DNA from: Rhodospirillaceae bacterium
GTDB taxonomy: Bacteria; Pseudomonadota; Alphaproteobacteria; GCA-2731375
Length of the DNA stretch: 64,000 nt
Assembly (NCBI GenBank): GCA_018660265.1
Contig: JABJKS010000061.1
Location: 95,139-159,138 of the forward strand
Direction of reading: 5' to 3'
Shown: one piece after another, positions 1,267 to 49,479 of the stretch
How the letters are laid out: each line of letters opens with the position of its first letter
Position numbering within the stretch: position 1 is the first letter of the stretch
Notes under the pieces: generated by a model
Told to the model about the DNA's origin: nothing
Seen by the model: the letters and a program-made list of their open reading frames with translations, nothing else
The model's database searches: none
Translations under genes and position numbers: made by a program

Positions 1267-2328
1267 ATGACGAATCCTTCCACAGTCCCCGTCCTAATCA
1301 CCGGCGGTGCGGGCTATATCGGCAGCCACGCTGTATTGGCATTACTTGACTGCGGCCGCGCGGTCGTTGTGCTGGATGACCTGTCTACGGGCCGCCGTGG
1401 GGCGGTGCCTGATGGGGTGCCGTTCTATCAGGGCAGGATCAACGATGATGATTGCGTTACCCAGGTTATCAAGGATCATGGTTGTTGCGAGGTGATGCAC
1501 TTCGCCGGCTCTATTGTGGTGCCGGAATCCGTGGCGATGCCCCTGGATTATTATCAGAATAATGTCAGCGGTACTGCCCAGTTGCTGCGCACCTGCCTGA
1601 ACAATGGCATAGAGCGGTTTGTCTTTTCCTCCTCCGCCGCAGTTTATGACGGTGATTATGACGGTGATTATGACGGTGATTACGACGTTACCGGCGGCGT
1701 GCCTTTGGTGGAGGGCGCGCCGCTGGCACCCGCTAATCCCTACGGGCGTAGCAAGTTGATGACCGAATGGATGTTGCAGGATATCTCTGCTGCGACGGAT
1801 TTGCGCGTTGCCGTATTGCGTTATTTCAATGTAGCAGGCGCCGATCATCTGGCGCGGTCGGGGCAATATTCAAAGGTTGCCACCCATCTGATCAAGCGGG
1901 CCAGCCAGGCAGCCCTGGGCGTTCTGCCCCATATTGATGTTTTTGGTGATGATTACCCGACGCCGGATGGCACCTGTGTCCGGGACTATATTCATGTCAG
2001 CGATTTGGCCCAGGCCCACCTGGCCGCTCTCGATCATGTGGCGGCAAGCGGCGAAAACCTGACCGTCAATTGCGGCTATGGCCATGGCTATTCAGTTCGT
2101 GAGGTGCTGGATGCCACAGACAAGGTGCTGGTTGATACTTTGGGTATCCCGGCCCTCGAACGTCGGATCGGGCCGCGCCGGGCCGGTGATCCCCCCAGCC
2201 TGGTAGCGGATACCACTCATATGCAATCGACCCTGAATTGGCTGCCGCAATTTGATGATTTGGCGGTGATGATCGAAACGGCGATTAGGTGGGAGAAACA
2301 GCTGGTGGATGGCCAAGAGCAATTTTGA
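1267..2328 (+). CDS. galE: UDP-glucose 4-epimerase
   Basis: A 353-residue extended short-chain dehydrogenase that interconverts UDP-glucose and UDP-galactose using bound NAD, in the cytoplasm, supplying sugars for surface polysaccharide. Visible features are the NAD-binding TGGAGYIGSH at the N-terminus, FSSSAAVY with the catalytic Ser region, and NPYGRSK with the catalytic Tyr and Lys. The C-terminal region (GDPPSLVADT) is typical of GalE. Between the SSSAAVY strand and the catalytic helix there is an unusual insert of repeated Tyr-Asp-Gly-Asp units encoded by a 12-bp tandem repeat. The last three codons (EQF) and the stop lie inside a dispersed structured element. Neighbouring genes 2428-4264 also look sugar-related but are on the other strand. 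Confidence 0.93.
   Translation: MTNPSTVPVLITGGAGYIGSHAVLALLDCGRAVVVLDDLSTGRRGAVPDGVPFYQGRINDDDCVTQVIKDHGCCEVMHFAGSIVVPESVAMPLDYYQNNVSGTAQLLRTCLNNGIERFVFSSSAAVYDGDYDGDYDGDYDVTGGVPLVEGAPLAPANPYGRSKLMTEWMLQDISAATDLRVAVLRYFNVAGADHLARSGQYSKVATHLIKRASQAALGVLPHIDVFGDDYPTPDGTCVRDYIHVSDLAQAHLAALDHVAASGENLTVNCGYGHGYSVREVLDATDKVLVDTLGIPALERRIGPRRAGDPPSLVADTTHMQSTLNWLPQFDDLAVMIETAIRWEKQLVDGQEQF
1645..1686 (+). repeat. 12-bp in-frame tandem repeat inside galE (3.5 copies)
   Basis: The unit TATGACGGTGAT occurs three times in perfect tandem and ends with a half copy TACGAC. It encodes Tyr-Asp-Gly-Asp repeats. Because the unit is a multiple of three, changes in copy number would alter loop length without breaking the frame. 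Confidence 0.95.
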
Positions 2329-2416
2329 ATTAATTGGAGTCGCTCTCGCGGCCCAAATGATTTGTTCAATTGCACTTTGTTCTTAAGAAATTGTGCATGT
2401 TTTAAAAAACATGCAC
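2316..2416 (+). repeat. Dispersed structured 3' element, copy A (after galE)
   Basis: One of three related copies in the window (see 29049-29150 and 49214-49323), oriented here in the direction of galE. It starts AGAGCAATTTT, which supplies the final galE codons and TGA stop. It then has an inner hairpin TTGG-A-GTCGC / GCGGC-CCAA, the closing arm AATTGCACT, and a distal perfect 10-bp hairpin (GTGCATGTTT / AAACATGCAC). It fills the gap between galE and the convergent formyltransferase-like gene. No ORF is seen in it. Confidence 0.85.
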
Positions 2417-2427
2417 TGGGGTGAAGA

Positions 2428-29020: not shown

Positions 29021-29048
29021 GGCAAACTCCGCGTTGAATTTCGCTCTA

Positions 29049-29150
29049 GAGTATGTTTATTCAAAACATGCTCAGACTCTTAAAGAAAAGAGCAATTGAA
29101 CCAACCACTTGGGTCGCGATAGCGACTCCAATTAATTTAAAATTGCTCTA
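29049..29150 (-). repeat. Dispersed structured 3' element, copy B (after dppC)
   Basis: The second copy of the element, in the direction of the dppC-like gene, whose TAG stop is its first bases (TAGAGCAATTTT). The inner hairpin is TTGG-A-GTCGC-TATC-GCGAC-CCAA and the outer arms AGAGCAATT and AATTGCTCT pair perfectly. The distal hairpin is GAGCATGTTT / AAACATACTC with one mismatch. No ORF is present between the dppC and MFS genes. Confidence 0.85.
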
Positions 29151-30053
29151 CCGCGAACGTAGTTTCGGATCGAGCACGTCGCGCACCGCATCACCGAACA
29201 TGTTAAAGGCGAATACGGCCAGGGTAATGGCTAAGCCAGGGAAAATGGCGACCCAGGGCGCGCTTTCGGCATATTCTTCCGCCCCGCCCTGTAGCATCAG
29301 ACCCCAGGCAGGCGTCGGTTCCTGCACACCAAGGCCCAGGTATGAGAGGGACGCTTCCAGCAAAATAGCCTGACCAACGAAAGTCGTCAGCATAATCAGG
29401 AACGGTGCCATGACGTTAGGCACCATATGGCGGAGGATAATGCGCTTGTGGGAAAAACCCATGGCGCGGGCGGCATCCACATAGGGGATTTCCCGAATTG
29501 CCAGGGCCGATGATCGCACCACCCGGGCGCATTGGGGAATAAACGGTATGGTAATGGCGATGATCACGTTCGATGTGCCTGTGCCAAGGATGGAGACCAC
29601 GGCCAGGGCCAGAATGATCAGGGGAAATGCCATGAAGACATCCATCACCCGCTGGAACAACAAATCAAACATCCCGCCGAAATAGGCTGATGCCACGCCA
29701 AGGACCAGGCCGGCAAAGGCCCCAATGAAGGCGCAGACAAAACCCACATATAACGCGGTGCGCGCACCATAGATAATGCGGGTCAATTGATCCCGGCCAA
29801 ATTGGTCCGTGCCCAGCCAATAAGTGCTGTTGGGTGCGGCCAGCATGAATTCAAAGTCGTTGGCTTCCGGATCATAGGGCGTGATGACATCGGCAAAAAC
29901 AGCCATGAAAACCATCGTAAGCACTACAAAAAGCCCCGCCGCGCCAAGGGGTTGGCGGCGCGCTAAACCCAGGGCGGATTTGTACCACGTACGCTGTTCG
30001 GTCAATTCTTCCAGTGTCGCAGGTGCGGAATTGGGAAGTTCAGATACAGTCAT
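29148..30053 (-). CDS. dppC: Peptide-type ABC transporter permease (DppC family)
   Basis: A 301-residue inner-membrane permease with an N-terminal cytoplasmic stretch, about six membrane helices and the EAA loop RAMGFSHKRIILRHMVPNV that contacts the ATPases. The segment YWLGTDQFGRDQLTRIIYGAR is typical of DppC/OppC. It pairs with the DppB-type permease 12 bases upstream. The symbol names the family; the cargo may be dipeptides, opines or other small molecules. Confidence 0.9.
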   Translation of the reverse strand: MTVSELPNSAPATLEELTEQRTWYKSALGLARRQPLGAAGLFVVLTMVFMAVFADVITPYDPEANDFEFMLAAPNSTYWLGTDQFGRDQLTRIIYGARTALYVGFVCAFIGAFAGLVLGVASAYFGGMFDLLFQRVMDVFMAFPLIILALAVVSILGTGTSNVIIAITIPFIPQCARVVRSSALAIREIPYVDAARAMGFSHKRIILRHMVPNVMAPFLIMLTTFVGQAILLEASLSYLGLGVQEPTPAWGLMLQGGAEEYAESAPWVAIFPGLAITLAVFAFNMFGDAVRDVLDPKLRSR

Positions 30054-49185: not shown

Positions 49186-49213
49186 ATCTGAAGCATGGAA
49201 GTTTGGCGGGCTG

Positions 49214-49323
49214 GAGCATGTTTCTTTTATACATGCCCAAGGCGCTGGGACTCTTAAGAATCGAGCAATTGAACCAATCACTTAGATCGCACAAGCGATT
49301 CTAACTAATTGAAAATTGCTCTA
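49214..49323 (-). repeat. Dispersed structured 3' element, copy C (after a small ORF)
   Basis: The third copy, reading on the minus strand from TAGAGCAATTTT. Its inner hairpin is TTAG-A-ATCGC-TTGT-GCGAT-CTAA, in which two G-C pairs of copies A and B are replaced by A-T pairs. The outer arm AATTGCTC is kept. The distal hairpin is GGGCATGT / ACATGCTC and is a few bases further away than in the other copies. The TAG is the stop of the 52-residue ORF at 49321-49479. Confidence 0.83.
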
Positions 49324-49479
49324 GTGCACCGTGTGCCCGACCTCGCCGTTTATGCGGTGGATTTCTTCGACGACGCCGTACCAGGCATATTGCTGGGCCA
49401 CATACAGGGCTTGCTCAACTCCCAGTGTCTCAACCAGGTTTTGCGCCAGACCTTGATAATGTTCGACCATGTTAGACAT
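49321..49479 (-). CDS. Small 52-residue protein
   Basis: Too short for the ORF track. It starts MSNMVEHYQGLAQNLVETLG and continues with EQALYVAQQYAWYGVVEEIH, an amphipathic, helix-forming composition. It is flanked by a ribosome-binding-like GGGAAG eight bases upstream and by copy C of the structured element at its stop. That the element starts at a stop codon, as for galE and dppC, supports it as a real gene. The function is unknown. Confidence 0.55.
   Translation of the reverse strand: MSNMVEHYQGLAQNLVETLGVEQALYVAQQYAWYGVVEEIHRINGEVGHTVH

Follow-up and report, generated by a model that had tools for sequence, protein, structure and literature searches.

A mobile two-hairpin repeat in a marine alphaproteobacterial genus, very probably a CIR-like miniature element

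Three copies of a dispersed repeat lie in the window, the 64,000-nt stretch of Rhodospirillaceae DNA analyzed here. The original prediction took compensatory changes among them as a sign that selection maintains a folded structure in RNA or DNA. The locus raises the question of whom the structure serves: the host at each site, or the repeat in its spread. All three copies are present where they had been placed, B and C on the minus strand, and the predicted order of parts is confirmed: a AGAGCAATT arm, an inner hairpin, an AATTGC arm, a CTTAAGA linker and a distal hairpin. The paired changes are also real. In the inner stem TTGG/CCAA becomes TTAG/CTAA and GTCGC/GCGAC becomes ATCGC/GCGAT, with a T-G wobble in copy A; one distal-stem pair is A-T, T-A or G-T. 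Copies A, B and C fold much better than shuffled sequence (RNA z −5.1, −4.7 and −5.6). Their features are as follows.

2316–2417, plus strand: copy A (nhmmer and covariance-model matches; fold z −5.1)
2326–2328, plus strand: TGA stop of the upstream epimerase-like gene (1267–2328), contained in copy A (ORF list, sequence, Pfam Epimerase)
2337–2341, plus strand: GANTC (GAGTC) of copy A, in the inner hairpin near the loop (sequence; family position 23–27)
2393–2416, plus strand: distal hairpin of copy A, GTGCATGTTT / AAACATGCAC (fold)
29048–29149, minus strand: copy B (nhmmer and covariance-model matches)
29075–29079, minus strand: second GANTC of copy B, in the linker (sequence; family position 71–75)
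29124–29128, minus strand: GANTC of copy B, in the inner hairpin (sequence)
29148–29150, minus strand: terminal TAG of copy B, the stop codon of an OppC-like permease gene (29148–30053; sequence, ORF list, Pfam)
49213–49322, minus strand: copy C, with about 8 additional linker bases (nhmmer and covariance-model matches)
49249–49253 and 49258–49262, minus strand: two more GANTC of copy C, in the linker (sequence)
49297–49301, minus strand: GANTC of copy C, in the inner hairpin (sequence)
49321–49323, minus strand: TAG of copy C that would terminate a small predicted ORF (49321–49470, 49 codons, without a Pfam match; of uncertain gene status; gene caller, Pfam)

The epimerase-like gene runs a few codons into copy A, which supplies its stop. 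The outer flanks of this copy are A (2315) and G (2418), so its target was not TA or has since decayed.

That these three copies are the only ones is refuted by a genome search, which returned at least 40 copies by BLAST and at least 134 matches to the R1 covariance model (E up to 0.1). The source genome holds 16 copies in 464 kb, or about 190 genome-wide by a very rough extrapolation; its relative G010 holds 91 in 1.2 Mb, which extrapolates to about 350. The unit is 101 bp long (model positions 2–102) and reads AGAGCAATTTTCAATTAATTGGAGTCGC-TTTC-GCGACCCAAGTGATTGGTTCAATTGCTCT, a linker TTTCTTAAGAGTCT, then GAGCATGTTT-AGAAT-AAACATGCTCT; terminal inverted repeats of 6–7 bp, AGAGCA...TGCTCT, are present in the family. 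Two inverted-repeat arms joined by a linker are borne out by the covariance model and by folding the consensus of each subfamily (103 positions, z −7.3). The second subfamily, abundant in G010, combines another stem sequence with an identical architecture (AGAGCAATTCCGAATTAATGAGAATCGC-GAA-GCGATTC...). A third, more diverged variant of the two-hairpin design occurs at L268:2088–2192 (AGAGCAACCCGC...GTTGCTCT, distal TAGCGCATGG...CATGCGCTA), and a shorter relative, which has AGAGCAATTCTG...AAATTGCTCT and differs in its inner hairpin, at G000:C110:19487–19582.

The family is carried by each of the 11 genomes sampled from a single uncultured genus of marine Alphaproteobacteria; where records are named, they are bins from marine metagenomes under the labels Alphaproteobacteria, Proteobacteria or Rhodospirillaceae. 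Four further genera within its taxonomic family gave at most one weak match, and the R1 model found none in about 285 other alphaproteobacterial genomes sampled outside the genus. A generic two-hairpin TAGAGC pattern, counted in 240 genomes, is clearly above chance in this genus only. No Rfam family matches the repeat at gathering or relaxed thresholds, and neither a BLAST search of plasmids and phages nor a viral-contig scan gave a match. The suggestion of a distant kinship with Rhizobiales-type intergenic repeats is therefore right in kind, whereas in sequence the family is restricted to its genus and has no relative in the other genera sampled.

The repeat is mobile, as orthologous empty sites show. 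About 13 alignable independent sites are filled in some genus genomes and empty in others. The empty site is mostly a single YTAG or TA and the insertion is precise; some aligned empty sites are not TA, several are ambiguous, one is C|AG, and one recent insertion lies in CC|GG. A target logo over 223 copies shows C or T followed by T on the left and A followed by G or A on the right (YT|AR, best CTAG), with no signal further out. At least eight identical copies occupy unrelated sites in G010, and two tandem pairs of copies each share one CTAG. Together with the defined 101-bp unit, the filled and empty site pairs, the YT|AR rule and the recent bursts make mobility directly testable.

Does insertion duplicate the target? 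Filled sites resemble TA...TA, yet the outer T and A are far more variable than the inner A and T, and some targets are CA or CG. On the copy tree, the outer T and A have undergone 24 changes each on terminal branches and 7–9 on internal ones; the adjacent inner bases change less (11 terminal and 1 internal, 19 terminal and 2 internal). Substitution of the outer T/A runs at about three times that of the average column, unlike the inner ends. Because the outer bases vary to this extent, the family does not fully fit the classical definition of a TA-duplicating MITE. Our reading is that the repeat enters between T and A with no clear duplication of the TA; at TA targets, insertion with duplication would give an identical sequence.

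These data bear on the idea that the repeat is a MITE derived from an IS630/Tc1-mariner element, the origin suggested for RUP of pneumococci. We regard this as possible but unlikely. The target is a TA-centred CTAG, DDE_3 (IS630-family) genes occur in 9 of the 11 genus genomes, and one IS group of this kind also occupies CTAG, directly at repeat ends. Against this, its ends (CTAG-TGCTCCGCACC, CTAG-TGGTCTGAATC) are unlike those of the repeat, and the outer and inner T/A lack the behaviour expected of a duplicated TA. IS630 was accordingly rejected as the parent, since the best-resolved elements have other ends despite their use of CTAG and their nesting. The nested elements themselves (L268:713–2192 and L275:1367–2725) lie at or beside the CTAG ends of repeats, which thus act as IS landing sites.

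A search of 1.66 Mb for an autonomous copy split into halves found none, and around the DDE_3 and RAYT genes retrieved there was neither a parent IS nor a transposase bearing AGAGC ends. Movement as a REP-type repeat by RAYT, a Y1 tyrosine transposase, is very improbable. RAYT genes are present in 9 of the 11 genus genomes, but at two loci (L261:1119–1940 and L254:1147–1928) a long palindrome unrelated to the repeat, GGGGACACAATAC..., flanks the gene and forms a separate REP system; none of the RAYT loci fetched has an R1 repeat nearby, and no RAYT was detected in two genomes with copy numbers of at least 30 and at least 79. RAYT was rejected as the mover on the strength of this different partner palindrome.

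What, then, maintains the stems? In 113 copies, two-sided change was seen in 22 drawn pairs against 10.9 expected (0 of 500 shuffles), exceeding both shuffled and shifted controls. The distal arms alone occur in at least six matched forms, e.g. GAGCATGTTT/AAACATGCTC, GAGCATTTTC/GAAAATGCTC and GAGCACATTT/AAATGTGCTC. The covariation expected from the original prediction thus stands against shuffled sequence; under a tree-aware null, in which substitutions are replayed on the tree, the best true pairs, all in the distal hairpin, reach E values of only about 0.1, 0.35 and 3, because few lineages hold most of the change. The distribution of changes over the copy tree is more telling. Internal branches, which represent spreading lineages, carry 28 pair-keeping and 6 pair-breaking changes (6/34 break), and terminal branches, which represent single resident copies, carry 69 and 110 (110/179 break; Fisher p = 3e-6). 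Resident copies lose pairs much like neutral sequence. Pairing is held in spreading lineages and lost after insertion, which argues that the structure serves propagation and decays in residents. This pattern fits a structure required for spreading better than an RNA function for the host at every insertion. Of the predicted structure under selection, the structured dispersed family with covarying stems is upheld, and selection at each site is not. The family also carries a warning: covariation in a repeat family can stem from selection on propagation and not on host RNA function.

Compensatory change could also arise without selection if template switching within a hairpin copied one arm onto the other. 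Two copies in G007 (C93:6294–6398 and C129:25763–25867) have a first hairpin that is a near-perfect palindrome copied from one arm, possibly a trace of such quasipalindrome correction, and the distal arms change in blocks of two or three adjacent bases (ATG to GCA, ACA or ATT). Paired change relative to breaking nevertheless concentrates on internal branches, whereas correction should act on residents as well; loops and bulges remain, and the spread is left unexplained. Quasipalindrome correction may add to the paired change, although as the explanation of the compensatory changes it is unlikely.

We propose instead that the repeat is very probably a miniature mobile element of CIR/MITE type that depends on an enzyme supplied in trans, hence non-autonomous, a 101-bp AGAGC...GCTCT unit of two imperfect palindromes and a linker, which would make it a new, recently active CIR-like family, its CIR kinship being judged from published descriptions and not from sequences. 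The unit has inserted many times, cleanly between the T and A of YT|AR, preferably CTAG, in all sampled species of the genus, one of which shows a burst of identical copies. A hypothetical transposase or recombinase acting in trans would recognise the hairpin ends. Recognition of this kind would maintain pairing in spreading lineages and leave it to be lost in residents. The repeat is tolerated only outside coding sequence.

Gene context, based on a simple ORF and hexamer caller, is compatible with such tolerance. None of the 104–107 copies in 1.66 Mb lies inside a predicted gene. Copies are in excess downstream of genes: of 104 in the same 1.66 Mb, 43 lie between convergent genes, where length predicts 12.5, and 12 between divergent genes, where it predicts 35.8. 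The repeat's own terminal TAG is the stop codon at 48 of the 135 adjoining gene 3′ ends (36%). The CTAG target overlaps a TAG stop and both ends of the repeat read TAG, so that insertion there is harmless; for the latter reason the protein end stays intact after insertion at a TAG or TAA stop. The family thereby shows how a repeat can sit harmlessly at exact gene ends by bringing its own stop codon. We regard target choice and removal of harmful insertions as sufficient for the observed 3′ location. In G010, CTAG stop sites are occupied at 18/102 and intergenic ones at 11/199, a comparison confounded by decayed ends, and we claim no extra attraction to stop codons.

The same location could be expected of an RNA element that works at 3′ ends, either as an intrinsic terminator or as a stem that stabilises the mRNA, recruited to gene ends and kept by selection on the host. 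The strong hairpin precedes a T-rich stretch (on average 4.9 T per 8 nt), copies are enriched between convergent genes, and orientation with the gene prevails at exact stop codons (28:14, p 0.04) and within 100 nt (48:31, p 0.07). Yet single copies often break pairs (about two thirds of one-sided changes), many are missing from the same site in sister species, the T-run differs between subfamilies, and a preference for gene 3′ ends can follow from target choice when genes and promoters are avoided. We consider a host-selected 3′ element improbable; for a mobile element, terminator-like activity at mRNA 3′ ends would be a side effect.

Among known repeats, the closest in description are the CcrM-associated intergenic repeats (CIR) of Caulobacter, Brucella and other Alphaproteobacteria, on record since 2003 (Chen and Shapiro, 2003, via PMC2229807). 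That review (PMC2229807) describes them as about 110 bp long, with TA ends, two inverted-repeat arms and a linker, GANTC at the terminal loop and no occurrence in genes, and calls their mobility unexplained. The present family shares the size, TA ends, two arms and linker, GANTC at or beside the terminal loop, strictly intergenic position, CcrM-bearing host and alphaproteobacterial setting, a likeness drawn from the published description; the R1 model had no match in the approximately 285 alphaproteobacterial genomes outside the genus. It differs in its demonstrated empty sites, target and recent bursts, points on which the review has no information for CIR. RUP of Streptococcus pneumoniae (PMC3049150, PMC2229807) is likewise similar (107 bp, about 110 copies, TA target, intergenic, in excess between convergent genes, strongly folded); unlike in the present family, its terminal repeats are 9 bp long and resemble those of IS630-Spn1, a parent of a kind not found here, and no GANTC is reported for it. 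Bru-RS1/2 of Brucella (103–105 bp) and RIME of rhizobia, named in PMC2267715 and PMC2573895, are palindromic, stem-loop intergenic alphaproteobacterial repeats, alike in size and general anatomy by description alone. REP/BIME are also abundant intergenic palindromes with hundreds of copies, but the present repeat is a precise 101-bp unit that inserts at YT|AR, and the RAYTs of the genus are partnered with a different repeat. Decay on terminal branches, a target rule read from empty sites and the rebuilding of stop codons were not found described in the texts searched, in which CIR repeats are covered by the review PMC2229807.

The GANTC sites may tie the repeat to CcrM methylation. In the inner hairpin, at or beside the loop (family position 23–27), GANTC is present in 138 of 183 copies, its variable base being G in 65, A in 45, T in 27 and C in 1; the linker site (position 71–75) is present in 99, and 167 copies have at least one. 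GANTC density is 17 per kb in repeats, about tenfold the 1.7 of other intergenic DNA, against 0.75 in genes and 3.7 predicted from base composition. Genome-wide depletion with an intergenic excess is reported for CcrM-bearing Alphaproteobacteria (PMC3973325), and the pattern here is the same. At the four fixed GANTC positions, substitution is not below average on terminal branches and somewhat below on internal ones, so the data suggest but do not prove that GANTC itself is selected.

Genes for CcrM (a RAMA-domain methylase) and GcrA are each found in 10 of the 11 genus genomes, and the L313 protein matches the CcrMI structure 6PBD (E 5e-156). Dam methylation gates IS10 and IS50. By analogy, CcrM methylation of GANTC might confine mobility to the hemimethylated window after replication, and the TAG ends might have evolved to exploit stop codons as safe harbours; we hold this combined idea to be speculative and rather unlikely, though if it were true, CIR-type repeats across Alphaproteobacteria would be cell-cycle-gated transposons. 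In the two loci examined, the CcrM gene adjoins a gene that, from our reading of its sequence, we take to be MutY-like.
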